IMG/VR virus record: IMGVR_UViG_3300048593_000672
Span: 1 to 64,000 of that record
Length of the DNA stretch: 64,000 bases
Strand: one strand, 5' to 3'
From: a virus
Under the pieces are notes generated by a model, which did not search any database, was not told the DNA's origin, and saw only the letters and a program-made list of their open reading frames with translations. Of this stretch, positions 940-64,000 are shown piece by piece; within the stretch, counting starts at the first letter, position 1; each line of letters begins with the position of its first letter. A program made the translations under genes and the position numbers.

Positions 940-1575
940 GTGTCAAAACAAAGACATAATAATGATGCCTACTACACCCATGCGGGATTGGTGAAGGCAT
1001 TACTGGATAACGTGGAGATTAGTGGGACTGTGTGCGAACCCTGTGCGGGGGAGGGGCATATTGCATATCAGTTAACTGAGTCTGGGCTTGAAGTGGTTTC
1101 TAATGATGTTGATATGTCGCTAGATTATCCACACCATGTTCTTGATGCCACCACCAACTCTTGTTGGGACGTGATGGGCGAAGGGAAGGAATTTAAATGG
1201 ACAGTAACGAACCCTCCCTACCGTCAGCCCGACTGCCAAAAGATTATTGAAAATGCCTGGGAGTATTCTAAAGTTGGTATCGCAATGCTGTTGCGGTTGA
1301 CTTATCTTGAGCCTTGTGCTTTATCGTCTAAGGATGTCATTAACTGGACTCAACGCTATCCAGATCGTGAGTTGAGTTGGGATGACCTTAATGGTCGCGC
1401 ACCATTCCTAAAATCAGCCCCACTTTCTCATCTGCTGGTATTTAATCCCCGTCCACAATTTCGGACTGACACTAAGGGGACTGACAACACAACCGTTGCT
1501 TGGTTTGTTTGGCAAAAAGACTGGGCTGAAGGTACTCAAATCGAATTTATTACGGACTGGAAAACTAATGTTTAA
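940..1575 (+). CDS. Class I SAM-dependent DNA methyltransferase (adenine-type NPPY)
   Basis: A 211-residue protein with the SAM-binding motif CEPCAGEGHI (residues 32-41) and the catalytic motif NPPY (91-94), the order seen in gamma-class amino-methyltransferases acting on adenine N6. It starts with GTG at 940, supported by GAGAGGA a few bases upstream. It is the first gene after the early promoter and its stop overlaps the next start (ATGTTTAA). There is no companion restriction enzyme nearby, so it is probably an orphan modification enzyme, perhaps protecting phage DNA from host restriction. It is short compared with complete adenine methyltransferases and may lack a target-recognition domain. 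Confidence 0.7.
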   Translation: MSKQRHNNDAYYTHAGLVKALLDNVEISGTVCEPCAGEGHIAYQLTESGLEVVSNDVDMSLDYPHHVLDATTNSCWDVMGEGKEFKWTVTNPPYRQPDCQKIIENAWEYSKVGIAMLLRLTYLEPCALSSKDVINWTQRYPDRELSWDDLNGRAPFLKSAPLSHLLVFNPRPQFRTDTKGTDNTTVAWFVWQKDWAEGTQIEFITDWKTNV

Positions 1576-1957
1576 AAACTGTACTTTTAACATCAATATC
1601 TTGCCTGATGATAAGCACCAGCAAGAGCAATCTGATAACTATGTCAAGCTTGGTGATTTTGATTATCAAGAGCCAACCGAGTCTTTGCTTCAAGAGTTAC
1701 ATTTGGTTAAGGGGGCTGATTATTATTGGCAAAATAATAGCTGGCTTGAAGCTTGTGAGCTATGGGTTTTGCCTACTCGTTTTGGGCAAGTCTATGATGC
1801 AATCCATTCTTCTGCTGGTGTTCTTATTTGTCAAGCAAATGAGGATGTGCTTAACTCTAGCTTGTACAGGCTACTAAAAGAGCATAAAACTGTCAGGATA
1901 GAATTTGTCACCGATGCGATCTATAACATCTATAAGGTAAGTCAAAATGCAAATTAA
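1568..1957 (+). CDS. Hypothetical early protein
   Basis: A 129-residue protein beginning MFKNCTFNI; the ATG at 1568 overlaps the previous gene's stop, which favours translational coupling over the longer open frame starting inside the methyltransferase. No family is recognised. The sequence is acidic with a central aromatic stretch (ADYYWQNNSWLEACELW) and no signal or membrane segment. It sits between a methyltransferase and an SSB gene, overlapping the SSB start by 11 bases, so a role in early DNA metabolism is possible but not shown. Confidence 0.7.
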   Translation: MFKNCTFNINILPDDKHQQEQSDNYVKLGDFDYQEPTESLLQELHLVKGADYYWQNNSWLEACELWVLPTRFGQVYDAIHSSAGVLICQANEDVLNSSLYRLLKEHKTVRIEFVTDAIYNIYKVSQNAN

Positions 1958-2315
1958 CACAGTAAACTTGGTGGGTCGGCTGGGACGCGATCCGGAAATT
2001 AAGTTTTTTGGATCGGGTAAAGTTAACGCAAAATTCCCTATCGCTGTTAACAACCCATTCAACAAAGATCAAGCCGATTGGTTCAATGTTGAGGTGTGGG
2101 GAGAAAAGACAGTTGATGTTGTTGCCAAGTATTGCAAAAAAGGCTCCCTAGTTGGCTTGACAGGTTATGTCAAGATTGAGCACTGGGACGATACAAGCAC
2201 TGGTGCTGCCCGTTCTAAGCCAGTTATTAATACTGACAACATTTATCTTTTGGGTGGCAAAAAAGACAATGAGCAAAAAACAACACAAAACTATGATGAG
2301 GAGATTGCTTTTTAA
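1947..2315 (+). CDS. ssb: Single-stranded DNA-binding protein
   Basis: A 122-residue OB-fold protein of the bacterial SSB family: MQINTVNLVGRLGRDPEIKFFGSGK at the start and WFNVEVWGEKTVDVVAKYCKKGSLVGLTGYVK in the middle are typical of the fold's strands. The C-terminus ends EEIAF, resembling the acidic tip ending in phenylalanine that SSBs use to recruit partner proteins. It would coat single-stranded phage DNA during replication. It overlaps the preceding gene and is followed two bases later by a Gp157-like gene and a second SSB-like gene. Confidence 0.9.
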   Translation: MQINTVNLVGRLGRDPEIKFFGSGKVNAKFPIAVNNPFNKDQADWFNVEVWGEKTVDVVAKYCKKGSLVGLTGYVKIEHWDDTSTGAARSKPVINTDNIYLLGGKKDNEQKTTQNYDEEIAF

Positions 2316-2317
2316 TT

Positions 2318-2845
2318 ATGAATAATTCACTTTATAGCATTAGTACCGAGTTATCGGAACTCAATTTTGCCATTAGCAATGCAATGGAGTCCGACGATCT
2401 CACCCCAGAACAAAAAGATGAATGTGTCTCTAGTTTTTTTGAGATTTATTTAGCTGTTGAAGAACGGTTTGATGAACGGATAGATTGGTTGGCGGCTGAT
2501 GCTAAACAGAATGAAGCCCAAGCCGATGCTTGTAAGGCAGAAGCTAAACGAATCAGTCAGATCGCAGCAACTTATGAGGCGCAAGCTGAACGTATTCGGC
2601 AAGCAATTCTTGATGCTATGCAACAGCATAATAAATCAAAGGTTAACGGTACCTTTTGCAAGTTGTCTATTCGTAAAAACGCTCCCAAGTTAGTTATTAA
2701 TGTTGGGGTTGATAATCTACCAGATCATCTTGTTAAGACAGCTATTGTCAAAGAACCAGATAAAGCAGCCATTAAAGAACACATTGGTAATTGTTTTAGC
2801 CCCATTGCCCACTACGAACAAACTCAATCTTTGGTAATCAAATGA
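2318..2845 (+). CDS. Siphovirus Gp157-like protein
   Basis: A 175-residue protein matching the Gp157 family pattern (Pfam PF05565): an N-terminal helical segment, a long alpha-helix with alternating acidic and basic residues (residues about 60-105), then a beta-rich C-terminus with KLSIRKNAPKLVI and PDKAAIKEHI. The family is common in phage early operons beside SSB and recombination genes; its exact function is uncertain. It overlaps the next gene by four bases (ATGA), indicating coupled translation. Confidence 0.8.
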   Translation: MNNSLYSISTELSELNFAISNAMESDDLTPEQKDECVSSFFEIYLAVEERFDERIDWLAADAKQNEAQADACKAEAKRISQIAATYEAQAERIRQAILDAMQQHNKSKVNGTFCKLSIRKNAPKLVINVGVDNLPDHLVKTAIVKEPDKAAIKEHIGNCFSPIAHYEQTQSLVIK

Positions 2846-3135
2846 ACAATGCAACTTTAAGCGGTGAACTTAGCTCTGATCCTCAAAGCCGATTTGTTAA
2901 TGATGGACAAACACAAGTTGTTAATGCTGTTTTGCAATTTAACAATTTTAAGGGCCAACCTGAGCGGATGAAGATCGCGGCTTGGGGCAATCAAGCTGCC
3001 GAACTGCAAAAATACCAGCAGGGGACAATGCTGATTGTCGAAGGCCGGTACAAGTCTTTAAAAATCGAACGGGATGGTTTTAAGGAAGATGTGCTTGAGT
3101 TGAATGTTTCTAAAATTCATGAGGTGAACGTATAA
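2842..3135 (+). CDS. Second SSB-like OB-fold protein
   Basis: A 97-residue protein with an SSB-like pattern: MNNATLSGELSSDPQSRFV, then KIAAWGNQAAELQKYQQGTMLIVEGRYKSL. It is shorter than the SSB at 1947-2315 and lacks an acidic C-terminal tip, ending in VSKIHEVNV. The pair flanks the Gp157-like gene. It may be a divergent paralogue with a separate role, such as recombination or a heteromeric SSB. It overlaps both neighbours by a few bases. Confidence 0.75.
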   Translation: MNNATLSGELSSDPQSRFVNDGQTQVVNAVLQFNNFKGQPERMKIAAWGNQAAELQKYQQGTMLIVEGRYKSLKIERDGFKEDVLELNVSKIHEVNV

Positions 3136-6834: not shown

Positions 6835-7829
6835 TAACTTTTGCCAGTCTTTTTACTGGATATGGTGGGGCTGATCTGGGGGCTGTCCATGCAGGATTGA
6901 CCCGTGTATGGGGGATTGAAAAAGACCCTAGTATTGCTTACGTTGCCAACTTAAATCATGGTAACTATATCTTATGTTTAGACGCAAAAGATTGTAATTT
7001 TAGCTTGTTTCAACGTCCAGACTGGCTACACGCAAGCCCTCCCTGTACAACTGCCACTGTAGTTAATGACAAAAAAGAATCACAGGAAGATATTGATTTA
7101 GCTCAGGCAATTTGTCGAGCGATTGAGGTATTGCAACCTCAATATTTTAGTCTTGAAAATGTTGCGGGTTATGTCAGATATCAATCTTTTGCCAAGATCG
7201 TATCACGACTATACGATCTTAATTACGCATGGGATTATAAAGTCTTGGATTGTTCTGATTACGGAGTTCCACAAGCTCGAAAAAGATTATTCTTTGTAGC
7301 GTCAAAAAATCCCTCTGTTTTTGGATGGGTTGATCGCATTCCAAAAGTAGAGGAAAAAGCCAATTGGTATGACGCGATCGCTGATTTAATCCCTACTCTC
7401 CCAGAATGCAAGCTAAAAGAGTCTCAAAAAACAGCGTTAGTTAATAGTCATGAAGTTTTGACTAACTCCATTGAAAAGTCAGAATACTTCCGACAATTAC
7501 CAAATCTAGCTATTCAAAATAGCGGTTCTCGCAAAGATAAAGACGGGAATCCTACTAACACTATCCGACTAGCCAATGAGACTATCTGGACTATTAGGGC
7601 TATGTCTGGCAACGTCCGACCTAACCCCCATCAAGTAACTTTAATCGTTGATGGTCGGGTATTACGTCCTACGATTGAATGTTATGCCAGATGGCAATCT
7701 TTTCATAATAGCTATCAGTTTAGCGGTGATTTTAAGCTAGATATGCGCGGAGTGGGCAATGCAGTCCCACCATTAATGTTTTCTCAAATTGTAAGGAGTG
7801 TTTTAAATGATTTTTGCAAAACTTACTGA
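6831..7829 (+). CDS. C5-cytosine DNA methyltransferase
   Basis: A 332-residue Dcm-type enzyme. Motif I is FASLFTGYGGADLG (residues 4-17), the catalytic cysteine is in ASPPCTTA (C72), the ENV motif is SLENVAGY (109-111), and motif VIII is QARKRLFFV. A GNAVPP motif near the C-terminus completes the class. The variable region between is short, as in monospecific enzymes. The ATG at 6831 overlaps the stop of a tiny membrane peptide and follows a G-rich ribosome site. No endonuclease partner is visible. Confidence 0.9.
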   Translation: MITFASLFTGYGGADLGAVHAGLTRVWGIEKDPSIAYVANLNHGNYILCLDAKDCNFSLFQRPDWLHASPPCTTATVVNDKKESQEDIDLAQAICRAIEVLQPQYFSLENVAGYVRYQSFAKIVSRLYDLNYAWDYKVLDCSDYGVPQARKRLFFVASKNPSVFGWVDRIPKVEEKANWYDAIADLIPTLPECKLKESQKTALVNSHEVLTNSIEKSEYFRQLPNLAIQNSGSRKDKDGNPTNTIRLANETIWTIRAMSGNVRPNPHQVTLIVDGRVLRPTIECYARWQSFHNSYQFSGDFKLDMRGVGNAVPPLMFSQIVRSVLNDFCKTY

Positions 7830-8136
7830 CATCGAACAACAATTACTTTTATTACTTGTTGATGGCATGACATCTGATGAAATTGCCACTATCTTAGGAA
7901 AGTCTAAAAGCACTATTGATAATCAAATTGCTGAACTAAGAGAAAAGACTGGTCACAAGACCCGACTAAGTTTGGTGAATGACTATTACAGATCAACTTT
8001 CTGTAAAGACACTATTCAGGATGAACTTAATATCTTAGATGTAAAAATTGCCGTGTGTGAGGCAGAGTTAGAAGTTCATCGCACTATGCGACAAATCAAA
8101 TTTAATCAATGGTTAAAAACTCAAAGAGGTTATTGA
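7807..8136 (+). CDS. LuxR/GerE-type HTH regulator, short
   Basis: A 109-residue protein. Residues 5-55 form a GerE-like helix-turn-helix (LTDIEQQLLLLLVDGMTSDEIA, then GKSKSTIDNQIAELREKTG), the C-terminal domain of LuxR regulators and also close to sigma-70 region 4. There is no sensor domain. The C-terminal half is helical (LDVKIAVCEAELEVHRTMRQ). It overlaps the end of the C5-methyltransferase gene by 23 bases. It may be a transcription activator for middle or late genes. Confidence 0.7.
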   Translation: MIFAKLTDIEQQLLLLLVDGMTSDEIATILGKSKSTIDNQIAELREKTGHKTRLSLVNDYYRSTFCKDTIQDELNILDVKIAVCEAELEVHRTMRQIKFNQWLKTQRGY

Positions 8137-9093: not shown

Positions 9094-9492
9094 ATGGCTG
9101 CTAAAAAAATAGATATAAGCTATTGTGGTTACAAACCCAACCAAAAAGTAGATAAACTCTACATAAGAGATGGAGTTAAGTACTGGGTTGGGCCATATCT
9201 TGTTTTTGACCCAGAGCTAGAAATTAATACCAGCAGGGGACAAATGAAAAGGAAGCTCAAAGACCATCAAATTAGTCGATTAACAAACCATGTTCCTGTA
9301 TGTAGCAGCTTAGATGGCAAAGCTATTGTTATCCATAAGGATAGGATTAGACCCCACAAAAAAGATGCTGTTACCTTTGCTCATGTCTTTGGAACTGTTA
9401 ATAGCGGTGGTATTATCCTCGCTGGTGCTAGTTACGAAAAAGCGGAAGATTTATCGTTGGGGATTGAGTCAATAACTGAGCTTGACAACTAA
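9094..9492 (+). CDS. Hypothetical protein
   Basis: A 132-residue protein, lysine-rich in its first half (KKIDISYCGYKPNQKVDKLYIRDG) and ending in SITELDN. No family recognised and no membrane segment. It starts two bases after the D12 methyltransferase, and its 3' end contains the next operator-promoter (9482-9510), so the gene and the promoter overlap. Confidence 0.6.
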   Translation: MAAKKIDISYCGYKPNQKVDKLYIRDGVKYWVGPYLVFDPELEINTSRGQMKRKLKDHQISRLTNHVPVCSSLDGKAIVIHKDRIRPHKKDAVTFAHVFGTVNSGGIILAGASYEKAEDLSLGIESITELDN

Positions 9493-16886: not shown

Positions 16887-19800
16887 CCAACTGGCGATCG
16901 CGTTCAATCTGACTCATTGACTTGCCAAGATCATTCGTGTTAGCCACTTCAATCTTAATGGTTTGATTGAAGTTGTTAACAGTTCCCTCGCTGGTATTAG
17001 TCTGAGTAGTGTTGGGGATGTAGGAAACAGGGCCGCCCTTGGCAAAATTCTTAACATCCTTGGCCATACGTTCTGACCAGTCTTTATAGTTGCGGTAGTC
17101 GCTGGCTTCGTTTGCAGAAATCACATACTCGTCAGCATTAAGGACGGCCAGGATGGGCCGCTTACCACCCGACTGCGACCTCTCCCGATTCATTGCTTGA
17201 CTAATGCCTTCTACCAGTCCCCCACCCGCATAATTATCAATCTTGAGGGGGTCAACGGGGCCGCCGTCGGCAAAGTTGAACGCATGACTAATCATTCCTG
17301 TAAAGCCGCCCGATAAGCTGTCAGCTATTGATTGACCCGCACTGGCATTACCAGCGTTAAACAGATTGCCAAAAATATCACTGCCAGCATTGATAAAGCT
17401 ACCGCCGCCGCTAACTGTTAAAGCACCAGCAAAAGCAGATAGGGCTGTAGTCGCTTCTGTCAGTCCCAAAATAAAACCGGCCATGGCGGGGTCAGTGGAA
17501 GTAATACCAGCGAGGAAAATGTTATCCATTGCTTGGCTGGTATTAGTCGTTGATTCCGTCAGGCTAGTAAATGCACTACTCAAATCAATTGTGTCGGGTA
17601 AAGCTTGACCTGTTGTTAATGTATTGCTTAAGTCAAAAGGCACAATGTTGTTGGCCGCTATGCTTGCCCCCCGCTCACCTAGTCGCGTAATTACATGGGG
17701 ATAAAATTCTTTGTTATCCAGACCGAGCATTGGCCCAACCCATTCAGCGATCGCATTTTGGAAGGGTTTGATAGCTAACTGCTCTAACATCATCCCCAAA
17801 ACAAGATCCTTGACTTTGTTGAGCGACTCCCCTAGTCCCTTAGACTCTAGGATCGCGCTACGCAGCCCCGAACTAAACTCTTTTAGACCTGGGATAGCGT
17901 CAACAAATGATCGCTTAATATTTAACTCACTAATCTCAGCCTGAAACCGCCGCATTTCACTAGCCTGTTGAGGCGAGTAAGCACCATCCCGAATCTGCTT
18001 CTCTAAATCAACTCTGGCTTGAGCCGCTTGCATCCGAGCATTAATAATCGCACTGGGGTCAATTAACGTTCCCATTCCCCAATCATTCTGCGCCCCAACG
18101 TCATAACGGGTTTTGTAGAGGTCAGCTTGAATTTTGGCATAACCCTGTTTAGATGCCATAATTTTATCGAGTCGCAACCAGGCTTCAGTGGCTCGTTTAG
18201 TGGGTTCTTCTAACGCAGCCATCGCCTTGGATTGCCTGTCAATTTCTTCCCGACGAGCTTGCATAATGGGAATGCTGTCGGTATAAAGTTTTAAATTGCT
18301 TTGATAAACAGACATAGCTTGCAACTCTTGAGTAGTTGCTTGGCGACCAGCTTTCGTCAGTTCAGCTTGCTTGTCAGCTAAGGCTTGTGCCGCAACCGCC
18401 GCACCAATATAGGCATCATCCATCTGTCTGCCAAGATTCCGCAATTCATCATCAAAATCACGGTTCATCTGGCGGAATTGTACACTAACTCCTTCTACAG
18501 CCAGGTTAATCTCATCAGCAGCCGTTTTATAGCCCTTGCTGTTAATGGCTAACTCACGATACTTGATATTGTTATCCTCAACTTTTCGACTCAAGTTAAG
18601 AGCCATATCTTGAAGGGATTGTAATTGCTGTTGGAAGGCATTGTTGAACTTGACCACCTCAAGATTGCCTTGCAGATCAAGCACAGCCCGATTGACCCCA
18701 ATTGTCGCATTCTTAACATCATTAATCTGACCAGCCGTATTAGTTAAACTACTCGTATCTTGTACAGTGATTGGATTTTGATCTGTAATTTGCTGTAAGC
18801 CGCTATAGTCATTAATTGCCCTTGGCTGGTATTTTGTAATAAATGGACTTTGTACGTTTGGCAGGACATTTCCCCCATTCATATCAACTTGAGGCTCAAG
18901 TTGAGAAGGTTGATAGCCTGGGAGTGTTTGATATTTTTTAATGTTGGGGTTGACATTGGCATTGCTACTACCAATCCCCTTGGCCGCATCAACTCTTGCC
19001 TGACTTTCCTTAAATTGTTTGGCAATTGCCTCAGTGCGTTTTTTCCAATCCTTCGACGACATCCTATCAATAAACTTAATGCCTTTTGACTCATAAAACT
19101 CATCAAGTTTAAAGGCTTCAGGATAAAGTTCTTTTTGATATTTGATAATATCTTCTAATGGCTTGCGGCTAATATTATTTGGATCGTTCAACTCAGCTTG
19201 ACGTTTTCTTGCCTTCTCCTGTTCGATCCGTTTGGCCCGCGCAGCAGTAGTGGCATTAGTCTGGAAAATTGCAGATCCCATATCACTAATACCCTCACTG
19301 GCATCAGCGACTAGCCACTCTTTGGGGGCCGCCGATCTCATTTGATTGTATAAGATACCCCTTACTCTAGATAAAGACTTCAAGTATTTAGATCCGTAGG
19401 CTGGATCTGTAGCATAGCGACCATAGCGACCCTTAAAGTCACGGTTGATAAAATCTTCAGGAGTGCTAAAGAAAAAGTCTTTTTTAAGTTTAATTGCTGC
19501 GTACTCTAAGCCCTGTCCGTAGGTTTTAAAGTGCTTGTTATTGCCAGCATCATCGTTGCCATAGTTCAGTGGGTTTTTAGTAAACTTCCCTCGTCCCTTG
19601 GTTCCAAAATGGCTTTCAATAAATGCTTGAGTTACTAAGGCATCAATGCTAACTCCTGACTTGGTAGCAGCATTTTTAAAATCCTCAACTGTCATTTGAG
19701 AACCATACTGGTTCAGCAATCTTGCTAAGTTTTTCTCCCATCCCATCGATTGAGTAGTAGCAGCCTGCGCCGGAGCGGTCAAGATGTTTTGCGCTGGTAC

Positions 19801-22800
19801 TTGTAGTTGATACGATGTTTTAACTTGCTTTGGTGCAGCAAGATTTAATCTCATCCCCCCGCCATACTTGCCCATCAGCCCGTTTAGTCCATTAACATCC
19901 CCAGGTGCGTAGTATTTAGTTGGTTGTACGACCGCACTTGGCTGACCAATCGGGACTGAGAACGGGACTCGTTCAACTACCGACTCACCGTAGCGGGGAT
20001 CGATATTAATACCAGCAGAGGGATTGTATGAGAGAGGGGCGGCTGGCAGTGAAGGGAGCTTGTTTTGATAGCCGCTATTGGGAGCTTCTTTCGTAATCCG
20101 GGTTATGATTTGCTCTAGCTCACGCCCTAACTTAATAGATGACGACTCCATCTGCATCATCATTGACCTAAACTGTTCATTGAGCCGGATGATGCTACGA
20201 GTGCGTTCCTCTTCGGCCCGCAGTTGTTTCTCCTGTTCATCCCGAATGCGCCGGAGAGTCGTCACATACTCTTGGCCAACCTGACGTTGTTTCTCATCAA
20301 GCGATCGCCCTTCCCCTTCCAAATTGCCGATATTCGCGAGGAAGTCAACAAAGATACTGGCAGTCTTTTTACCAATACTGTCGGGTTGGAAGCTGATGGA
20401 TTCAACAGCCAGCGTAGCCTTAGCTTGTCTCAGTTTCTCGCTGGTGCTTTTAAGTTCATTCTGAGCGGCCAATAGTTGACCTTCCAAATCAAACTGTAAA
20501 TCAGCCCAAGCCTCCTGCAAACCGCGAGTCTCGATAAAGGCATTACGGGCTGAATCCTGCACAGACCAGCCAAAGTCACGGACTTGTTGTTGCCAACCAA
20601 TCTCAGTCTCTAGCACAGAGCGGTTAAAGTCCTCTACCGATTGACCCAAGCCCCGATAATACTCTTCAGTGTTCTGTCCCGACTGCATCACTGCAAACTC
20701 AGCTTTAGCTACAGCTTCATTAGCACTTGCTAGTTGTTTAGCTAACTCTACTGGGTCTTGGGAGTTATCCTTAAACAGTGCTTTAACATCTCTTAACTGA
20801 CGTTTAGCTGTAGCCAAGTCATTGTAAGCAGAAAAAGCTTGAATATCTTGAGTGCCAATTTTGCCCTTACTAGCAGCTTGATACATCTCAATATTCGTGT
20901 TGCTAGCCGCAATCTGGGTGTTAGCTTGACGGATAGCATTGAGTCGTTGTTGCTGTAGCTTTTCAAGATCAATTTGAGCTTGTAAAACTTTGCCCTCTAA
21001 CTCATTCGCTTGCTGGTATTTTTCTTTAAACTTAATAGATTGCTCTAAGAAAGTTTTTAGTCCCCCGCTAATACCATCCCCAGATTCAACCAACGCCTTC
21101 ATTGTCTCCACGCTGGTATTCATGATCATGTCTAGGGGGTCTTTATATTTCTCCCCACCACGACCTCGTAACTCAAGCCGGTTCATTGCATCCTGAGCGA
21201 CACTTGGCTCTAGTCCATTTAAAGCAAAACCTTTAAATGTTTCAGCATCTTGTTTAACAGGCAATAATTCCCGTTTGGCAGTAGTTAAGTTATCTAAAGC
21301 TTGCTGGCGTTGTAAATCAATATCATCAAGTTTTTGATTAAGCCGAGCTTCAAGTAATTGATTATTACGACGACTTGCTAACCCCTGATTGTATTCAGCG
21401 ATATTAGCACCAGCAGAAGAAACTAATTGACTAGCTCCTTGTAAACCAGGAATCTTTTGGTTGATAGAACCAGTGTGCATTCTGATTGCTTCTAGCCTGA
21501 CGTTGGTATCAGACATTAGCTTGGCAATGACTTCTAGCTTTGCCTCACGTGCTTGAGCGTCGGGATTCTTTTTGACTGTCTCCCTCATAGCCTCATAAGC
21601 TTTATTCATCTGCTCTAAAGCAATCTGATTGCCAAAAGTTTCATTGACGGCTTTTTCTCGATCCCCCACCTTTACTGCCAACTCAGCACTAAGGTTTTTA
21701 AACTCCTCACGGTTGTTACCACCCAATTTACTGTTATTAGCTAAACGAGTTCTGATAACAGCAATCTCTCGATCTAGCTGAGAAATATCAGCTTTACCTT
21801 TTGCAAGGTTTTGGGGATTAGCGTAATTTGCATCCGCCTGTTCGATCAGTCTTTTGCCATAGCTAATACCCCTGTCAACTTGCTTGAGGTCTTCCATCAA
21901 ATCCCGCCGATCATCCTTATCCATGCGAACGGATTTGTAGATATTGCCTTTTTCGTCTCGGTAGTCAATAACGATGTTATTTATGCCACTATTTGGCGCA
22001 CTTGGATCAAAGCCAAATGGATGGGTGTAGTTATTTAGAACACCACCAAAAACTCGTTGGGCAAAGTCGCCAACTCCAGTGATAGGTGTTGGATTGCTGC
22101 CACCAAGTCTTGTGTAAGTTGGATCATTTCGATCAACCTTATTGGGGTCTTTCATCTTGCCAGTCAACGTATTAGTAGCTTCCAGATTATTAATCATCTG
22201 CTCTAATTCATCGTTAGTCTTTTTCAATTCCCCGTGATAGGACTGCCAAATTTTAGTTCCTTTATCAATCGCAAATCCAATAGCAGCAAAAGCAATTAGT
22301 TGGGGGGCGATCGCATATAAAGCACTTCCGATACCAGAAAGCGCACCAGCTGTAGCAGCTAAACCCCTTACCGCCACATTGCTAGACGATCCACTGATAA
22401 CCAGGTTCGTGTTTAGTTTGGCTAGTCCAGTATTTAAGCCATTGAGTATCCAGTTATTAGTCATAAACTCAAGCCCCAAAACCTTGAGCGCAATCGTTAC
22501 AACTCTTGAGGCTGTTCCCGTATCCAGTAAAGCAAAGACAAATTTAGCCCCAAGCATCGTTACTAAAAGTCCCAGACTCGCCGTTAATCCCGTCGCTACA
22601 CTGTTAAGCGCATTCATCCCACCAACAGCTATATCCATTGCTGGCTTGCCAACTCCCAAGATTGTTTCTCCCATCCGACCCTGTAGTTTTTCCTGGGCGT
22701 TCTGGAATCGGGCGATACTACCGAGCGGCCCTTCCTTCACCGTATTAATCGGTAATGTTGCTTCGTAGGCTAGTTGTTTGGCCAAGGGTTGCAAGTCTGT

Positions 22801-25800
22801 TTCGGGAAACATCTTGCTATTTTTCATCTGGTTGGTTAACTGTTCATGGGTTAATCCCTGGGAACGAGCCATAGCCCCGATAGCTTGGGGTAGTACCTCC
22901 GCAAGCTGCGAACGTAGTTCCTCGGCCATTATTTCGCCTTTTCCGATCATCTGAACTACACTGAGGAACGCCCGTTGCTGTTCATCGGGCGTTGCACCCT
23001 GACCAACCAACGCAGCCGAGAACCCTTCAAAGATTTCTTGTACCTGGGGCGCAACGGTGGTGTTGGCGGCGGCGACTGTTAACTTAGTGAATGACTGAGC
23101 AGCAACCAACGCATTAGCTCCAATCTCATCAGCGTATTGGGCGATCTCCTTTAATTTACTGGCTGCATTAATGCTTGAGTCGTAAGTTAAAGCCGCTTTC
23201 ATCCGTTCCAATTGCAGGGCGGTATCAATACCAGTGCGGGCAAAATCAACGAGCACCTGTTCGACCTGCTGAAAGCCCATGTACATCAACAGCCCACCAG
23301 CAAAGCCTTTGATGTTTTCAATGATGCGGGCAAGACCAGGCATTTTTTCTTCTAATGCCCCCATGATCCGACCTAAGCCACGAATGCCAGCACCAGCGGC
23401 ACCGGCCCCCGCTTCAATTTCATCAAGAATGTTGTTAAACCATTCCCAAAATCCCTTATCGGCATTTTGAGGTGCTTGAGCAATCCCCGCAACCATATTG
23501 TTAGCACGACTATTAATAAAGTCTTTGGCATTATCGCCCATGCGCCGAGGTGCTAAATCATCAACAGTTAAACCACGACGAGGCGGCACTGGATTGGGAG
23601 AAGCACCAGCAGGGGGAATAGGTGGTTTGCGGGGGGGTTGTCCATTGCCACCACCAACAGGAACGTGATTATAAAGTCCAGCCGCCATAATGCGATTGGC
23701 TTCTGCAATTTGCCAGGCCTGACCTGTTAGGGGAGTAGAATCTCTCACTGGTCTTGTTGCACTTGTCTGTTGCTGTTGAATTTCCGAAACCCACAATTGA
23801 AGAGCATCACCCCATACGTCATCACCATGTAGCGGGGGGGACTGACTTGCAATCACCCTATTATTAGGAGGTAATGGTGGAGGGACAATTCCTCTCGCTG
23901 GTGTTTGTGCCTCGGATAGAGGAGGTAGCGGTAGAAGATTAGATACCCTGTCTTGTGCAACAACAGCATTTAATTCTTTTTCATAAATAAAGGAAACAGC
24001 CCTTTTATAACCAGTACTGTTAATATCCCTCCCGATATTGATGTTTTTAATATCGCGAAGATACAAGTTTTTAAGACCTAAAGCCTCTTCTTTGTAATTC
24101 TCAATATTTTTCCAACCCTCTTTTTCTAATTGGGGAACTGGCAAATCAAGCATCTCAATTGATTGGATAGCACCATCAATACCAATCTTGTAGCCTAAGA
24201 CTAAATTCTCACCAATCTTGATAAAGACTTTACTGGGCGATTTTTCCCCCAGAACATCCATCGCGGTTGTGATAAGTTTTTTGCTGGTGTTGGCGATCGC
24301 AGCAATCGGCTCACCCTCCGAACCAGTAATACCAGCCGTCAGACCTTTATTGATGTTTAGACCGACTCGTTCCATCTTTCCATAATTTTCATCCCCTTCC
24401 ATCTCTTTAAAGCCATATCCGGCCCAAAGCCTTTCGCTACGAGCATCTATTGGGGATGTACGAATTGTGTTGGAGCCGACTACACTAAACAATTCTTGCA
24501 TCCACAAATCAAGTTGTTTGCGAAGGGCTGCACGAATAGCGGGGTCTTTAGTTGGTTTAAAATCTCCATTAACCATTAGATCGGATAGATACCAACCCAT
24601 AGTCTTTGACACATAAGCGTGTAGATCTAGCTTTTGCCCTTCAACTACTGCACTTCTAGTAAACCTAGTTCCTACTTCGGGGGGTTGAATTTGACTGTCT
24701 TTTGTTGTCAACTCTATTCTTGGCATAGAGGATTCAATTGACAGCTTTTTGTTGATGTCAAGGCTGGCTTTTTTACCTGTAGCAATGATTTTATCAAGAT
24801 AAGAAAGTATATTTTTCCTGACAGAATCAAAGGGTAATGTATCTGTGTCAGAAGCATTTGGCAGCATACTCTCTGCCTCTAGAAATGCTTGTTTTGCTGG
24901 ACTATCTTCAGTTTTGTTTACGACTCTTCTTTGAAAGCTTGAGTGATTAAAATCTTTAACGATACTACTGACATTCGCATCTTCCGCAAGTCCATAGTCA
25001 ATCGCTCTTAGCTGCCCTTGTTTATCTATTAAAATATTGCCACCATGTAAGTCATTGTGTGCAATACCATTTTCTATTAAAGACTTTTTGAGTCGAATAA
25101 CTTCTTTAAAGAAAGACTCTGGATACTTCCCGCCATCAGAAATATTATAAGCATCATTGGCAGTTTGCCCCCGAATCAGTTCCATTGCAATCGCAGCGTC
25201 ACTAGAGCTATATCGCTTTGATCCCAAAACCCTTGGGCCAAGTCCAAGCTCTCCGGCCCTTCGAGATAGTTCTATTTCCTTGTCTGTTATTTGTCCATGT
25301 TTTAAGGCATATCCTCCCATATCATAGACAGTTCCATAAAGACCTTCCCCCAGTGTTTTTATCCCAGGAATAGTCTTAAATTCCCATTTATGATCATATA
25401 ATTCCTGTTCTGTAGGGATATTTATGGCACTTTCGTTTTTTTGTATCGGCTGCTTTGTTACTGTCCTTTGTTTGATACTATCCAAAGCAGCTTTATTCCC
25501 ACCACCCCATTCATAATAAGTTTCAAGTGTCTCAGCTAAGTTGTCTGCAAAATTATGACCAAATTGCTTAGATTGGGCAAGTTCTCTTTTAACAATGCTT
25601 TCAATATCGCCAATAATCGCCGCCATTTCTTTCGGCACTTTCTGAGCAACTTGGCTAAAGTCTAAGCCTTGATCTAGTCCAGCAACAATGTCTTGACCAA
25701 TCTCTTTAAATACCAGCGAGGGAGAATTACTTTTGAGCGTCTTTTTACTACTAGTAATCATTTCCCGCAACATTTCAATCGTTGCGTCTTTCGGCAAATG

Positions 25801-34768: not shown

Positions 34769-34847
34769 AGCTTGATATAAAAAATGGTTGAGTGGAAAGT
34801 AGCCTAGTCAAGTGATACCACGCTCTAGATATTGAACTATATTTTAA

Positions 34848-35066: not shown

Positions 35067-35068
35067 TT

Positions 35069-38342: not shown

Positions 38343-38350
38343 TTTAACCC

Positions 38351-38584: not shown

Positions 38585-38600
38585 TTATTATCAAAGATAA

Positions 38601-39853: not shown

Positions 39854-39854
39854 T

Positions 39855-40184: not shown

Positions 40185-40188
40185 GATA

Positions 40189-45847: not shown

Positions 45848-47743
45848 TTAGAGTTCAGTTGCTAAGTAACGGACTTCGATTACGCGAGTTTGTTGGGGAA
45901 CATCACTGGTGTCGCTGTAACCAGTTGCATCAACGTCAAGAGGATCAAACGATTCATGGGAGAACCAAGCAAATTCACTGGCACGGTTCCAGAGGATTTC
46001 ACCAGTCCGGCTGCGAATTTCCATTGGCATCCCGACACCACGCGAAATGCTATCAGCACCGAGATTGTAAGTAGAACGAGTCTTTTTAGAGCCAGCCCCA
46101 GTCGTAACATTTTGAACTCCTGGGGTGCCAGGTGCACCCATGCCACGCTCATTCTGAGAGAAAATATGGAAACCAGAAACAACGCCGTGATAGCCAGAGA
46201 TTTGATCAATGTCAGTAATGGACTGCAATGCACTGGTAACACTTAACTGTTCTTCCATCGTTGCGGGGTTTAAGAACGCTTGACGATCAATAGTTACCAG
46301 GCTATCGGCTAACTGATTAAAACTATAGTCGTCAAGGATTTTGGCGTAATAATTCCCTTCGTACTTGGGAATCTTCATTGCAGCCATGTACTCATACTCA
46401 GAGCGCAAAGCAGAAGCCGTACAAAGCCCACCAGAGCCAACCACAAGATTGAGTGGATTAGTTTCAATCTCGTTATTATTGATATAAACAACAGCACTGG
46501 TCGGAGTGATTAAAGACCAAATAGCAAGGTCTTCAAAAATCATGTAGTTACGGGCAATATTAATATCAAACAAATTGAAAATATCAATCGCCGAAGTTTG
46601 CTCTGTGAAGTTGGCGACAAAGTAAGGTTCATTACCAGTTGCACCAATTTTACCCATCCCCCACTCTTTGAGGACAACATCAACAGTGCCAGTTTGCACC
46701 CCTTGACGGTTATCAGTAAGATTGGCAAACGTACCGTTACCAGATAACTGCCAACTAGAAACCGTGGTAGGTGGGGTATTTAGCGCATAACGCCAAACCT
46801 GCATTGTATCGCCCCTGTTTTTTTCCCACTGAATCTTGATGTTGGGAAATTGCCACATAATATAATTGGAACGGTGAGTAAACCGCATCAATCCACTTAA
46901 GAAGGGTAGAAAACCACCGACAATATCAGCAGGAATAACACCAGCGTTAAAAGTTACATTTGAACTTGAGCCAAACAACCCATTCCGTTTCAAGTAATCT
47001 TCATATTCTTGAAAAATGGGAAGATGCTGAAAACTGTTGACGTTGCGGAACTTTGTACCCAAGTCTTTTTCGGCTTCCTTAATATGACTAAAAAGCCACT
47101 GTTGCATGGCAGTACCGTTAGGTTGTCCCCATGAACTATCAACCCCACTGATCGAGTCTCTTACGTTTTTACGAACCTTGGGGGCTGACTCAAGAATGGA
47201 CTGAAACTCTTGAACTAAACGACTTTGGCGATCGCTACGGCTAATCTTCGTAAAAACAGAGCCATTGTAATTCTGACTACGCCCAGTAATCCCAGTCACC
47301 GCTTGCAGATTGTCCATTGCTTGCTCCTGCTGGTGTTTTTCATCCTGTGTTTGTTTTAAGCTGGCTTGCAAATCTGCTACTTGCTTTTTAAGGGCTTCCA
47401 TCTCAGGTGATTCAGCACAATCCTCTTCAATCGCCTGTACAGCCGTTAACTGAGCTTTGGCCGCAATTGCCGCCGCATCAGCCGCTTGTTGGATCATTGC
47501 CTGTACATCTTGAACAGTCATCGTAACTGTCTGGGGAGCGGAAACAGAAATACCAGCAGGGGGAATATCAGTCGATTGCAAGTTGATCGTTGCAGTTCGC
47601 TTAGTCGCTTTTGCCTTAGCCTCCGCCTTATCCTTAATTAATTCATTTAATACTTCAACAGTAGCTACACCCTCCTCAGAGGAAGGGGGTATTACCACTG
47701 TTTTTAGTTCTTGGGTAACTCGCGGCTTTCGGGTAGTTGCCAT
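45848..47743 (-). CDS. Scaffold-major capsid fusion protein
   Basis: A 631-residue protein. Residues 1-155 are charged and helical with a coiled coil (ESPEMEALKKQVADLQASLKQTQDEKHQQ), as in scaffold domains that are removed by the prohead protease. Residues about 175-631 fit an HK97-fold capsid protein (FNAGVIPADIVGGFLPFLSGLM; NIKIQWEKNRGDTMQVWRY; VKEWGMGKIGATGN region; C-terminal DVPQQTRVIEVRYLATEL). Size, order after a protease-like gene and the N-terminal coiled coil support this. The fibre-like neighbour genes are not part of it. Confidence 0.7.
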   Translation of the reverse strand: MATTRKPRVTQELKTVVIPPSSEEGVATVEVLNELIKDKAEAKAKATKRTATINLQSTDIPPAGISVSAPQTVTMTVQDVQAMIQQAADAAAIAAKAQLTAVQAIEEDCAESPEMEALKKQVADLQASLKQTQDEKHQQEQAMDNLQAVTGITGRSQNYNGSVFTKISRSDRQSRLVQEFQSILESAPKVRKNVRDSISGVDSSWGQPNGTAMQQWLFSHIKEAEKDLGTKFRNVNSFQHLPIFQEYEDYLKRNGLFGSSSNVTFNAGVIPADIVGGFLPFLSGLMRFTHRSNYIMWQFPNIKIQWEKNRGDTMQVWRYALNTPPTTVSSWQLSGNGTFANLTDNRQGVQTGTVDVVLKEWGMGKIGATGNEPYFVANFTEQTSAIDIFNLFDINIARNYMIFEDLAIWSLITPTSAVVYINNNEIETNPLNLVVGSGGLCTASALRSEYEYMAAMKIPKYEGNYYAKILDDYSFNQLADSLVTIDRQAFLNPATMEEQLSVTSALQSITDIDQISGYHGVVSGFHIFSQNERGMGAPGTPGVQNVTTGAGSKKTRSTYNLGADSISRGVGMPMEIRSRTGEILWNRASEFAWFSHESFDPLDVDATGYSDTSDVPQQTRVIEVRYLATEL

Positions 47744-53976: not shown

Positions 53977-55314
53977 TCAATGCCTCCCATTAGTTACTAG
54001 CAAATCAAAATCTTTAAGAGATCGCTGAGACACCGGCTCACTCCCAACCCCGCCCATATCCAAATCACTAATACCAGCAGCAGAAGTTTCATCGTCATTG
54101 GCTCCCGCTTGTCCCCCAACCAATGCTGACATATTCCATTGGGGCCAAACAATCCGGTAAAATTGCCCCGTCTTCCGCCAGAACTCTTCACCCCGCTTTA
54201 ACTTGATCTCGGTGTCAATGACTTGCCGAATGATTTGGGTTAGAGCATTGCAGTATTCGTTGCGGAGTCGGGCGTGCTGAAAGGCTGGTTGGGCCGATAG
54301 CTCCCTAGCAGATCCCGTCATTGCCCCTGGGAACAGGTAAAGGGGCCAGCCAGGCAGCATCATCTTGAATCGCCATTGAAGATAAACGTCAATGAGAGTT
54401 TGAAGGTTGGGGTTTTGGGAGCCAAGTTTTTTAATGTCAGCCCCAGGCAGCATATACAAGTCAGTTACTACACCATTCAATTTATTTGCTTCATGCTTTG
54501 TTATATAAGTCTCACGACCAGCACTATTCATTAAATCAAACGTATGGACGTTGGGATTGATACCGATGTCATTGGCGGCGATCGCCAAATCGTGAGTAAT
54601 CTGCTTAAGTTTTGCCCAAATCCCAGTTGCTACGCTGGTCTTCCACTCCGACTTACCGTAAAGATGTTGCTGGTTACGCCGGAGGTGAATAATTTTCCAT
54701 GCGGGGAATTGAATCGCCTCTTTATCATCCAGGTAACGACGTTGTTCAAACCCAGTCAAATAGCCATTATCTTCTTCCTTCCGAAACATCTCAAACGTAG
54801 GCAAAAACAATGTTCTTCCCACCGTAAAGCCAGACCCATCCTTCTCCAATCCAATCTCTAAAAAGGTATCGCCATATCCCAACCATTGCTTTAAAGCCAA
54901 TTTGAGCTTATCCCCACCGATCACATATTCACCTGGCCAAGACTGACGACGGATAATATCAAGCCCGCAGTCGTAAACCCATTTATCAATCGGCGTAAAA
55001 TCTGGCTTTTGGGCAGTCCCATAATTAAAGTCTGGTGCAATCGTAAAACCCTGATCATCCCCATCCGTAGAGCCGTAAACCGCATTCACCGCAAGGGTTA
55101 GGGTGTGATCAATCTCATAACAATACTCGCAAGCCTCAACAATCTCCCTGGTAATCCCCCGCCGATCTTGCCGAACGATATTCTCTCCAATCTCCAGGTC
55201 ATAACGCTTAGAGTGATCCAAGCCAGCATAACCCACCACTGACAAAGGACGTTGCGATCCATCAATACCAGCAGAGGGATTTTGGTTGGGCTTGGATTTT
55301 TTCTTTTTAGCCAT
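53977..55314 (-). CDS. Portal protein
   Basis: A 445-residue protein next to the terminase genes. The sequence (MAKKKKSKPNQNPSAGIDGSQRPLS; RNQQHLYGKSEWKTSVATGIWAKLKQI; RFKMMLPGWPLYLFPGAMTGSARELSAQPAFQHARLRNEYCNALTQIIRQVIDTE) has the pattern of phage portal proteins, including a long helix near the C-terminus that forms the stem. It forms the dodecameric DNA gate at one vertex of the head. Confidence 0.75.
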   Translation of the reverse strand: MAKKKKSKPNQNPSAGIDGSQRPLSVVGYAGLDHSKRYDLEIGENIVRQDRRGITREIVEACEYCYEIDHTLTLAVNAVYGSTDGDDQGFTIAPDFNYGTAQKPDFTPIDKWVYDCGLDIIRRQSWPGEYVIGGDKLKLALKQWLGYGDTFLEIGLEKDGSGFTVGRTLFLPTFEMFRKEEDNGYLTGFEQRRYLDDKEAIQFPAWKIIHLRRNQQHLYGKSEWKTSVATGIWAKLKQITHDLAIAANDIGINPNVHTFDLMNSAGRETYITKHEANKLNGVVTDLYMLPGADIKKLGSQNPNLQTLIDVYLQWRFKMMLPGWPLYLFPGAMTGSARELSAQPAFQHARLRNEYCNALTQIIRQVIDTEIKLKRGEEFWRKTGQFYRIVWPQWNMSALVGGQAGANDDETSAAGISDLDMGGVGSEPVSQRSLKDFDLLVTNGRH

Positions 55315-55377: not shown

Positions 55378-55402
55378 AACTAACTAACACCAGCGAGGTA
55401 AA

Positions 55403-56342: not shown

Positions 56343-57923
56343 TTAAATATACCTATTTTGTCTTGACTGTTGAGGGAGATAACCAACAAAGCTTGTATCT
56401 GAACTGATTATAATTGCATTTTGGGCGTTTGTGACCTGTTCATAAGCCCCAGTTGCCGAATCCACGATGTCATTGACGGTGGCCTTGAATAAACCGTCAA
56501 AACTTTCGACAGCCGATAAAAACTGGCTATTCCAATCCCCCCGAATCAAAAATACATGGCCCTGTTGTGCCTGAGTAGCTAAAGGGAGTGCTCGTTGCAG
56601 CTTGCTTTTGTCGGGTTTGATGGCCCTAATATCAAACTCCCTATTGATCGCTTGTAGTTCCTCCGCAAAATCACTCTCTAAAATTTTAGAACTGGCCCCA
56701 CCCTCTAACTCATAGCGGATTTTGGTATTTATCCCATCGGCGATCGCCGTTCCCTTGATGGCCTCAAAAACTTCCCCCGCCTTTCGTTGAAATACCAGCA
56801 GGTCGAGAATGTAAATGTTTGTGCCGATCATTGCCATCAAACAACCCGCAGTTGAACAGGTCTTTTTCCCCGCATCCTCCCGACTGGTAGCAGCCAAATC
56901 CCAAAATCGAATTTTAATAAGCGGCTCACAGGGTAAATCAGCATAGTCAATGACTTTAAACCATTCACCACTAAAGACAAGACCAGCTTCATACCTGATT
57001 TTCCAGTTCCCGAATAGCAATCGTTGACGTTCAACTTCATGTAAAGCGTTTAAGTTGGCCAAGTATTCAGGGTTTTTGCGGAGAAGGGCGGGGTTGTCAT
57101 AGATACTGGCGGCAATGAAAGTAAACGACTTAATCATGTCATCGTAGGTCACAAGTCCATTACTTCCCTCTACGATCGCCCGTAATTTCTCTTTATGTTC
57201 TTCTATTAATTCCTGTTTAGTATCTCCCCAGTAAGTTATCTCGTTAAATCGCAAAAAATACCTAATAACACCAGATCGTTCCATAATGGGATAGCCAGTT
57301 TCAGGATGCCACCACCACTGAATAAATGACGCAACCCAACTATCAGCGTCGGGGTTCATTGTTGCCCTTACTTTTGGCTTAATCCCACAGCCAGAACGGT
57401 TCCGAGACAACATATAGAAAAATTGATTTTCGTGAAAATGGCACAATTCATCAAACCCAATCCAACAAAATTGCGCTCCCTGATAATCATAAACAGAATC
57501 CTCATGCTGTAAAGGTCTAAATGTTATTTCCGATCCCGTTGACCATCGCCAAGTTGGTGGTTTACTGGTAAATCGCCCCCCAATCTCCCGATAAAGTAAT
57601 TGACTTTCGGAGATTAAACCACCAGAGTTTGTTAACTGAGGATACGATCGCCTAAAAAATACAGCGTTATAGCCCGATGTCTGTATTGACTTTTGTTTTG
57701 CAGCATCAATTAACAAGAATGCTGATTTCCCTGAACCTGCGCTTCCCCCCGTAAAAAGCACATCAACCGGACAATTAAACATCTCAGTTTGTTTGCCTGG
57801 TTGTGGCGGTGGAAGTGGCCATTCAACTTTTGTGGTCGCTGAAACTTTAGCCCTAGTTGACTCTAGACAATGCCTTCGCAATTTAGGGCTAAGTAGTTGG
57901 GATGGTGAAACGCTATTTGCCAC
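56343..57923 (-). CDS. Terminase large subunit
   Basis: A 526-residue packaging ATPase-nuclease. Walker A GGSAGSGKS (59-67), Walker B WIGFDEL (154-160, ending with the catalytic acid) and nuclease acids in IRFWDLAATS (about 343) and DIVDSAT (about 493). It powers DNA into the head and cuts it. It overlaps the small-terminase-like gene upstream by a few bases. Confidence 0.9.
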   Translation of the reverse strand: MANSVSPSQLLSPKLRRHCLESTRAKVSATTKVEWPLPPPQPGKQTEMFNCPVDVLFTGGSAGSGKSAFLLIDAAKQKSIQTSGYNAVFFRRSYPQLTNSGGLISESQLLYREIGGRFTSKPPTWRWSTGSEITFRPLQHEDSVYDYQGAQFCWIGFDELCHFHENQFFYMLSRNRSGCGIKPKVRATMNPDADSWVASFIQWWWHPETGYPIMERSGVIRYFLRFNEITYWGDTKQELIEEHKEKLRAIVEGSNGLVTYDDMIKSFTFIAASIYDNPALLRKNPEYLANLNALHEVERQRLLFGNWKIRYEAGLVFSGEWFKVIDYADLPCEPLIKIRFWDLAATSREDAGKKTCSTAGCLMAMIGTNIYILDLLVFQRKAGEVFEAIKGTAIADGINTKIRYELEGGASSKILESDFAEELQAINREFDIRAIKPDKSKLQRALPLATQAQQGHVFLIRGDWNSQFLSAVESFDGLFKATVNDIVDSATGAYEQVTNAQNAIIISSDTSFVGYLPQQSRQNRYI

Positions 57924-58260
57924 CTAACACCGTAAAGTCAGCTTCCCCCATCTCCAACCCTGGGACGGGATTAATACCAGCAGAAGAAGGTTCTGTTATA
58001 TCAAAGCCTGCTTCTGTCAGTTTTTTGTAAGCGTGATTGATTACCATATCTGGGTTGGTTGCAAGTTCCTCAAATGCTTGTGCGATGACCGTTAAAAGCT
58101 CGTCAAATTGGGGGATGGCTTGCTCAATGTGTTCGTTATAAGTCTTGTCTGCCGCTTGCTCTAGCAGCGTTTTTACCGCCGACGATAGACTAACAATTTC
58201 GTCTCGACCATCATAACCCAATTCCCTTAAGGCAACTGATAAAGCACGATAGCCACTCAC
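57913..58260 (-). CDS. Small-terminase-like protein
   Basis: A 115-residue helical protein starting MSGYRALSVALRELGYD at a GTG at 58260 with AAGGAGG seven bases upstream; a longer frame starting in the promoter is rejected. Its C-terminus (INHAYKKLTEAGFDITEPS, then PGLEMGE) is similar to that of the 59434 protein (DKAYQQVTKAGFEVIDPT), so the two share a module. Proximity to the large terminase suggests packaging, but a second protein at 59434 competes for the small-subunit role. Confidence 0.5.
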   Translation of the reverse strand: MSGYRALSVALRELGYDGRDEIVSLSSAVKTLLEQAADKTYNEHIEQAIPQFDELLTVIAQAFEELATNPDMVINHAYKKLTEAGFDITEPSSAGINPVPGLEMGEADFTVLGGK

Positions 58261-61763: not shown

Positions 61764-61774
61764 AACACGACTAT

Positions 61775-62323: not shown

Positions 62324-62396
62324 GTTGACCTCTTATGGTTAATGTTTGTATTTTTTGGGCTTGTACGCCCTTTTTTTGTGCTTTCAACACTTTATT

Positions 62397-62425
62397 AGTA
62401 TAGCAAGATCACAAGGATAAGTCAA
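62397..62425 (-). promoter_or_regulatory. Strong leftward promoter
   Basis: Minus strand TTGACT (62425-62420), 17 bases, TATACT (62402-62397). Upstream of the gene at 62323. Preceding bases GC match the GCTTGAC start of the shared element, but no operator arm follows. Confidence 0.75.
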
Positions 62426-62435
62426 GCTAGAACGC

Positions 62436-63944
62436 TTACGGCGCAAGCCTTTCAGCCCCCACCCCCAACATAGTCTCAATCCTACTAATCGCAATATCAG
62501 CATAGGACGGCGAAAGCTCTATGCCATACCCCACCCGACCAGTACTAGCAGCCGCAACAATAGTAGATCCACTGCCTGCAAAGCAATCAACAATTAGATC
62601 GCCTTCGTCGCTGAATGCTTTTATGAACCACTCTGGGAGCTTATGGGGAAAGGCTGCTTGATGGCCATTGTTTTTATTAACTATGTGAATATCTAAGACA
62701 TTACTAGGCAGGGCAACACCACTAACAAGATCGCTATTATCTAGCACCGGCATATTCCAGTGAGTGCCATTGCCACTATCTTCTCTTTTGCTGGTATTAG
62801 TCCCATCAAAGCAATAATCAGACTCATGCCCTACTCGCTCAGGGTAGAAGCGTTCAATTGCCCTATCTGACTTGGTAAAATGAAACACAGGTTCAAAGCC
62901 ATTTTTAAAACGATTTGGCCAACTCCCAGGCGCGGCATTGCGTACCCAGCAAAACTCATCTACAAAACACCAGCCCCATTGTTCAACGTGGGCTATTGTT
63001 AGCTTTTTAACGTATAAATGTCTTTGCCCTTGTTCACAATGCTCTTTAATGTTTAAAAAGTAACTGCCGCTATTGGCTAACCACAGCTTAATATTATGCT
63101 GAACACTTTTAAACCAACCAACATAGTTATCTGGCTCTATTGGCACAAAACCACTATTCTCATCATATTTGCGCTGGCTGGCATAGGGCGGGCTAGTAAA
63201 GATAATGTCTGCTTTTTTATCGCCTAACAATTTGGCCCACACAGCAAGATCTAAGCAGTCACCAACAATAATCCTATGATCGCCTATCGCCCAAATATCG
63301 CCTGGCTTGCTCCTATTCTCTACTATCTTATCATCGTCTAAGCTATTGTTATCAGTCAGATCGTTGTCTGTAACAGCGTTTAAATCGTCGTTAAAACTTG
63401 TTTGTTGATTAGCATTGTAGATATTATCTAAGCTATCAAAACAAGCTAAGTTAGTGACATTATTTTCTAACAGATAACTAGACTGAGCAGCTAACAAAGA
63501 CTGATCAAACAACTCAAAAACAGCTTGATCGCCTAACGCTGCAACGGTTGTGGCATTGTGGTCTATACTATATGCTATTGCGGCGGCTTGACTGTCTGAC
63601 TTAGCGATAGTAGCTGGCACCAACCAATCAATAATCTTGTCACCCTTAAGTAGCGGTTCAACGTCTTTTGGTGGGTCGGTCTTATTTTTTTTGTAGAGGC
63701 TTTTGAGGACGTTAAGACTACGATCATGCCCCTCCACCAGCGTTAATTTAATACTTTTATCGGCTAAAATATCATCTACACTTAAGTCTTTATACTTATC
63801 ATCTAGAAAGACTAGATCGACTTGGATCGGGTCACGGAAGCCATGATAGTCGATACTGGCTAAAGTGTGACTAGTAGAGTGCTTTTTGGAGTTATTAACT
63901 AAGCCTTCTAGACGGGAAAGGGGGATAAGGCGGTATTCAAGCAT
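62436..63944 (-). CDS. ParB-like domain fused to a beta-class DNA methyltransferase
   Basis: A 502-residue protein starting MLEYRLIPLSRLEG at the ATG at 63944. The N-terminal ~120 residues contain a ParB/Spo0J-like motif (LVEGHDRSLNVLKSLY). The C-terminal ~270 residues are a beta-class DNA amino-methyltransferase: IIFTSPPYASQRKYD (near 248), DEFCWVRNAAPGSWPNRF, and the later SAM motif DCFAGSGST (near 456). Order IV before I defines the beta class (N4-cytosine or N6-adenine). Fusions of this type occur in phages and mobile elements; the ParB part probably helps bind DNA. Confidence 0.8.
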   Translation of the reverse strand: MLEYRLIPLSRLEGLVNNSKKHSTSHTLASIDYHGFRDPIQVDLVFLDDKYKDLSVDDILADKSIKLTLVEGHDRSLNVLKSLYKKNKTDPPKDVEPLLKGDKIIDWLVPATIAKSDSQAAAIAYSIDHNATTVAALGDQAVFELFDQSLLAAQSSYLLENNVTNLACFDSLDNIYNANQQTSFNDDLNAVTDNDLTDNNSLDDDKIVENRSKPGDIWAIGDHRIIVGDCLDLAVWAKLLGDKKADIIFTSPPYASQRKYDENSGFVPIEPDNYVGWFKSVQHNIKLWLANSGSYFLNIKEHCEQGQRHLYVKKLTIAHVEQWGWCFVDEFCWVRNAAPGSWPNRFKNGFEPVFHFTKSDRAIERFYPERVGHESDYCFDGTNTSKREDSGNGTHWNMPVLDNSDLVSGVALPSNVLDIHIVNKNNGHQAAFPHKLPEWFIKAFSDEGDLIVDCFAGSGSTIVAAASTGRVGYGIELSPSYADIAISRIETMLGVGAERLAP

Positions 63945-64000
63945 AATTGGTAAGACGACAACTAAAATCAATTATGCCATAAAATGACAAAAATACCAGC

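Follow-up and report, generated by a model that had tools for sequence, protein, structure and literature searches.

Dispersed DNA words under selection have been described in few phage genomes, and in the closest case, Corndog, their purpose is unknown. The repeats of Corndog and other Cluster O mycobacteriophages are 17 bp long, form a 7-3-7 palindrome and occur in 34 copies; about two thirds lie between genes or at gene starts, they are denser at the right end, and their function is unknown (PMC4351075). The stoperators of Cluster A mycobacteriophages are asymmetric 13-bp sites in 24-34 copies, mostly intergenic and oriented with transcription, and are bound by a phage helix-turn-helix (HTH) repressor (PMC3029335). 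Lambdoid phages that have recombinases and no RecBCD inhibitor over-represent Chi (PMC3784561). HIP1 (GCGATCGC), an 8-bp palindrome with a link to methyltransferases, occurs in most cyanobacterial genomes (PMC4390886). In this study, positions 1-64000 of the 74,687-base virus record IMGVR_UViG_3300048593_000672 (the window) were analysed for a dispersed motif centred on ACCAGC, or GCTGGT on the other strand. The results showed that natural selection keeps this DNA word itself.

The window holds 112 ACCAGC/GCTGGT cores (64 forward, 48 reverse), and base composition predicts 20.8. ACCAGC is the most over-represented hexamer there (maximal-order Markov model: expected 65, z 5.8). Synonymous codons were also shuffled within genes, which preserves each protein and its codon usage and leaves intergenic copies unaltered. 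The whole record has 134 cores, compared with 57 ± 5.5 in the shuffles and a maximum of 76 among 200 of them. The same shuffles gave 26.7 ± 2.8 position-weight-matrix sites above 15 bits, intergenic copies being unshuffled, and the record has 96; it has 124 such sites above 11 bits and approximately 100 non-overlapping ones above 14 bits. An earlier reading made from the sequence alone (the sequence-only reading) had reported about 100 cores where roughly 20 were expected, and these counts bear it out. The enrichment over a Markov model that it proposed as a check was confirmed, and neither a codon-aware null model nor a general abundance of hexamers explains the count. It had placed the motif at 1433-64000. 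The motif is indeed scattered through the window, but it reaches the record end, the final 10.7 kb adding 22 more cores.

The exact form AATACCAGCAGGGG had been claimed in 12 or more near-identical copies, a figure reached only when two mismatches are allowed: 3 copies are exact, 7 have at most one mismatch and 28 at most two, compared with 0, 0 and 1 in the Markov control. A longer degenerate form with purines after the core had also been proposed. The purine tail was recovered, but the unit is longer than stated. It is asymmetric and approximately 22 bp long, ACWAATACCAGCRRRRGRAAWTT, also written ARYACCAGCRRRRG or ACWAATACCAGCRRRRG. The matrix converges on A-N-W-A-R-Y-A-C-C-A-G-C-R-R-R-R-G-R-A-A, followed by weak T-richness, and conservation spans from the A three bases 5' of ARYACCAGC to approximately 10 bases 3' (logo -3 to about +19). 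The motif carries approximately 22 bits of information, and approximately 10 bits are enough to specify this many sites. The R and Y columns are interdependent (AAT 52, AGC 29, AAC 19, AGT 1; P = 2e-14). Avoidance of GTAC was considered as the cause of the rarity of AGTACCAGC and rejected: GTAC stands at 0.64 of expectation overall, too weak for 1/105, and AGTACCAGC is common among the motif matches in cyanobacterial plasmids. The dependence between the two columns, together with the fact that the degenerate columns remain degenerate, is the behaviour expected of a recognition code.

Viral contigs were scanned by TerL, portal, helicase, two structural proteins and three motif patterns. The scans gave only one close relative, an IMG/VR contig of 46.4 kb with a TerL 73% identical; the other motif-pattern matches in viral contigs arose by chance or from protein repeats such as ISSAGIVT, and the tail-protein relatives there were distant and without the motif. 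The relative is circularly permuted, colinear with the record and 83% identical over 33.3 kb; the lineage comparison rests on these two genomes. It has 78 motif sites in 46.4 kb, compared with 2-12 in shuffles, at the same density as in the record, and 45 of the 50 strong aligned sites stay above 10 bits in it. The motif and its flanks are therefore conserved in a related phage, as had been predicted. At four-fold degenerate positions, 2/57 in the core diverge from the relative, compared with 1303/3613 elsewhere (Fisher P = 1e-8). When sites were picked in the relative instead, core divergence was 4.6% versus 16.9% overall (P = 2e-13); at a distance of 30-60 bp from these sites, control positions diverged by 12-20%. 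Of 149 testable hexamers, ACCAGC ranks first in conservation, with 64 of 77 copies intact (83%) against a hexamer mean of 44 ± 11%; HIP1, the positive control in this screen, had 15 of 19 copies intact. Because this conservation lies at synonymous sites, selection acts on the DNA rather than on the protein, which agrees with the sequence-only reading.

The same alignment bears on the suggestion that the copies are mobile short interspersed repeats, which would fit many near-identical copies across different genes. Copies lost in one phage, for example TTTCAATACCAGCAGGGGAAACG versus TTTCAATATCAAAGTGGCAAGCG, differ by substitutions; no insertion or deletion of a unit was seen in homologous DNA, and no longer flanks are common to the copies. 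The Y column switches between T and C in 16% of conserved sites, and the degenerate columns have not become uniform. Lost copies decay by substitution in place and are therefore not mobile insertions. Membership of a mobile-repeat family is contradicted at the informative sites, and we give this explanation almost no credence.

The motif occurs in both orientations, inside and outside coding DNA, and in all six reading frames, the sixth only once. The independence from reading frame noted earlier thus holds: the copies read as Ala-Gly-Ile/Ala/Val (56), Thr/Ile-Pro-Ala (20), Asn-Thr-Ser (18), Tyr/His-Gln-Gln (11), Leu-Val-Phe (6) or Trp-Tyr-Trp (1). Open reading frames (ORFs) contain 84 of 100 strong sites, and their orientation relative to transcription is unbiased (39 same, 45 opposite), nor was an orientation bias by genome arm seen. 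Non-coding DNA has 2.0 sites per kb and coding DNA 1.26, values that do not differ significantly (P = 0.11). A single 4300-codon ORF at 16861-29763 of the window, presumably the tape-measure protein, has the top motif density among the regions compared (1.9 per kb). The spacing of about 600 bases reported earlier is right as an average, which varies from about 0.55 to 0.74 kb with the score threshold; all-site spacing is near Poisson. Each strand has its sites at intervals of about 1.4 kb. On the plus strand of the relative they are spaced more evenly than at random (coefficient of variation 0.61-0.68, P 0.002-0.011), and on that of this genome marginally so (P 0.05-0.18); minus-strand spacing showed no regularity. 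Sites less than 600 bp apart more often point in opposite directions (here P about 0.01; in the relative P 0.06-0.11). All 10 pairs closer than 40 bp are inverted, and several of them are one pair that recurs in both phages. These spacing and pair-orientation signals are suggestive only.

The host is probably a cyanobacterium, because HIP1 is strongly enriched (39 and 23 copies in the two phages, about 1 expected), palindromic sites are avoided, the primase-helicase protein has matches in cyanobacterial plasmids, and the only matches of the portal protein are in Cylindrospermopsis phages. Both genomes are nearly without many palindromic sites, such as AvaI CYCGRG, AvaII GGWCC, AvaIII ATGCAT, AcyI GRCGYC, TTCGAA, CTGCAG and others, which points to a host with many restriction systems. 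The enrichment and synonymous-site conservation of HIP1 in the phage pair are evidence that HIP1 selection extends to phage genomes. The motif itself was not enriched in the sampled DNA of such organisms. Ten cyanobacterial plasmids (2.13 Mb) had 63 matches, approximately 1 per 34 kb compared with 1 per 0.7 kb in the relative (approximately 45 times rarer), and two Cylindrospermopsis phages (101-104 kb) had 4 matches each. Literature searches on the motif in cyanobacteria or cyanophages gave nothing relevant. Among the sampled DNA, the motif is specific to this phage lineage.

Within the window, no site scoring above 14 bits falls in the 6.3 kb at 34010-40342, a gap with a probability of 0.010, and this stretch retains the restriction-site avoidance. 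It carries unannotated, possibly tail-fibre-type genes. It is probably a recent acquisition from a motif-free phage. If host machinery imposed the motif on all phages, a stretch acquired from another phage of the same host should carry it, and its absence there is a modest argument against a host-imposed motif.

A Chi-like role had been proposed earlier. In such a role, the motif would be read by a host recombination nuclease, and the phage would accumulate it to survive or exploit that nuclease. E. coli Chi begins with the six bases of the core, GCTGGT; the phage has its own Sak4-like ATPase (AAA_24), and lambdoid phages with recombinases offer a precedent (PMC3784561); and the opposite orientation of close neighbours looks as if the two strands were served separately. 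However, true Chi GCTGGTGG is not enriched (4 copies, 6.6 expected), and the degenerate unit of approximately 22 bp contrasts with the 5-8 bp of Chi. The ten plasmids show no enrichment, strand bias by genome arm was not seen, and recBCD has been reported missing from several larger-genome cyanobacteria (PMC5101192). The claim fails in the sense of E. coli Chi, and we consider even the broader form unlikely.

The motif could also mark sites where phage replication starts or restarts, as a loading sequence for Prim-Pol/helicase, clamp or recombinase. The replication and recombination set of the phage comprises a Prim-Pol/DUF3987 protein, a helicase, two SSBs, the Sak4-like ATPase and a clamp-like protein (weak DnaN-like match), and the sites on each strand and their plus-strand regularity described above would suit such a role. 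Known primase sites are far shorter, 3-5 bases, and the minus strand is irregular. This explanation is likewise an unlikely one. At 64491-65934 of the record, the sliding-clamp-like gene (DnaN, weak match) overlaps that of a basic 150-aa protein with CxxC pairs, which is unusual in a siphovirus.

Silencing sites bound by a phage repressor, blocking prophage transcription in the manner of stoperators, would share with this motif an asymmetric, dispersed site; stoperators are read by an HTH protein (PMC3029335), and this phage has several HTH proteins and a weak integrase match. The motif is mostly intragenic and randomly oriented, whereas stoperators are mostly intergenic and oriented with transcription, and its approximately 100 copies exceed their 24-34. 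A second iterated motif, AGTTGTCAAGC/GCTTGACAACT, with 16 copies that are mostly intergenic or at gene edges, is better suited to the role. It includes a TTGACA box, ends in the same TGTCAAG as the L5 stoperator consensus (PMC3029335), and is probably a promoter/operator set. Stoperator-like silencing by the ACCAGC motif is thus quite improbable.

Another candidate role is that of short homology or boundary sequences that promote exchange of gene modules within the lineage. Of the homology breakpoints between the two phages, 25% have a site within 30 bp, compared with 8% when the sites are shifted (P < 0.001), and the motif is present at 12 of 38 junctions near breaks versus 2 of 26 others (P = 0.03). 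At 66353-66406 of the record, an inverted motif pair makes up the whole of a 54-bp island retained between unrelated flanks. The pattern is confounded, because local alignments tend to end at the last conserved word, and a selected motif alone would produce it; moreover, the effect fades past about 60-100 bp. The association is therefore no proof of a recombination role, and we rate module exchange as an improbable reason for the motif.

We lean, with only a little more belief than doubt, towards the motif being the recognition site of a sequence-specific DNA-acting protein of this probable cyanobacterial siphovirus lineage, acting genome-wide. Among the roles listed by the sequence-only reading, a protein-binding grid is still the best one. 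The putative reader would recognise the asymmetric site, about two helical turns long, and would act on the whole genome, in replication or recombination starts, genome organisation, protection or packaging. Sites are gained and lost by point mutation and maintained by purifying selection, and intragenic sites persist wherever the encoded amino acids are tolerable. Approximately 100 gene-independent sites in both orientations across the genome make action on the whole genome most likely, rather than on individual promoters. We infer that a protein reads the motif, that it is phage-encoded and that its role is genome-scale. Any of the replication/recombination or HTH proteins could be the reader or recruit it. 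The first candidates are encoded at 65482-65934 of the record (the basic protein with CxxC pairs, next to the clamp-like gene), at 67834-68496 of the record, and at 7807-8136 and 315-791 of the window.

Several points weigh against this explanation. No binding protein was found, and the structure model of one conserved basic candidate was uninformative (pLDDT 46). Any comparison of gene content with the motif covers two related genomes. The reader may be host-encoded, the cyanobacterial DNA compared being that of ten plasmids. A more specific proposal, which we regard as rather doubtful, is a dense lineage-written code of one 22-bp site per 0.6-0.7 kb on both strands, read by the phage's own replication/recombination machinery, with paired sites marking module exchange, that is, a Chi counterpart encoded by the phage itself. 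The sequence of the site, which is precisely defined, is specific enough for a one-step pull-down of the reader. The features are collected in the table below. TerL (window 56343-57923) is mosaic between the two phages, with an almost identical C-terminal part and a strongly diverged N-terminal part.

Table. Copies of the ACCAGC-centred motif and of the second motif; window coordinates unless the record is named.
Feature	Position	Strand	Remark
Dispersal stretch of ARYACCAGC(R4G)	1434..64000	.	112 cores; continues to record end at 74,687
Exact AATACCAGCAGGGG copy	3011..3024	+	Form cited by the sequence-only reading
Exact AATACCAGCAGGGG copy	9226..9239	+	Encodes Asn-Thr-Ser
Third exact AATACCAGCAGGGG copy	47549..47562	+	
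Intergenic copy ACTAATACCAGCGAGGGAAAG, 24.3 bits	13562..13570	-	Kept in relative at alignable-DNA edge
Inverted pair in tape-measure gene, left member	17503..17511	+	Kept in relative
Inverted pair in tape-measure gene, right member	17536..17544	-	Kept in relative
Copy ATTAATACCAGCAGAGGGATT in tape-measure gene	20008..20016	+	
Copy AAATACCAGCGAGGGAGAA in tape-measure gene	25709..25717	+	
Intergenic copy ATTAATACCAGCAAGAAGATT, 22 bits	31287..31295	+	
Antisense copy in probable portal gene	54070..54078	+	Ala-Ala-Gly-Ile
Antisense copy in probable portal gene	55264..55272	+	Ser-Ala-Gly-Ile (NPSAGID)
Intergenic copy	55386..55394	+	Homology to relative stops just 3' of motif
Copy encoding Ser-Ser-Ala-Gly-Ile-Asn-Pro-Val	57973..57981	+	
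Intergenic copy, 23.9 bits	58750..58758	+	Relative has motif despite adjoining indel
Strong copy (23.1 bits) in methyltransferase gene	62790..62798	-	Relative without motif there
Intergenic inverted pair, left member	63992..64000	+	Partner record 64017-64025, minus; kept in relative beside its 1.1-kb insertion
AGTTGTCAAGC/GCTTGACAACT copies	record 297, 883, 6462, 9480, 31182, 43775, 49334, 49560, 49742, 53619, 55344, 58311, 70286, 70788, 70920, 73060		Probable promoter/operator set

Compared with Chi, the motif has the core GCTGGT in common and is likewise spread genome-wide over coding and non-coding DNA, but it is degenerate and exceeds Chi in length, the full Chi sequence shows no enrichment, and the sampled cyanobacterial plasmids and other cyanophages do not share the enrichment. 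Like HIP1, it is highly iterated and frame-independent, and the two phages conserve both words at synonymous sites, but it is asymmetric rather than palindromic and has been seen in this phage lineage alone. It resembles stoperators in being asymmetric, dispersed and particular to one phage lineage, and it differs from them in its random orientation and mostly intragenic placement. The nearest described case is the Corndog 17-bp repeat, also a short conserved word across a whole siphovirus genome, common to relatives and partly intragenic. The motif described here has an asymmetric logo, without dyad symmetry of the Corndog type, and is approximately 22 bp long with a purine tail, present in approximately 100 copies, mostly intragenic and nearly genome-wide. 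By this analogy, it would belong among the dispersed conserved DNA sites of phages. Should its reader work in replication or recombination, the phage would have in this motif its own equivalent of Chi or of nucleoid-organising sites.

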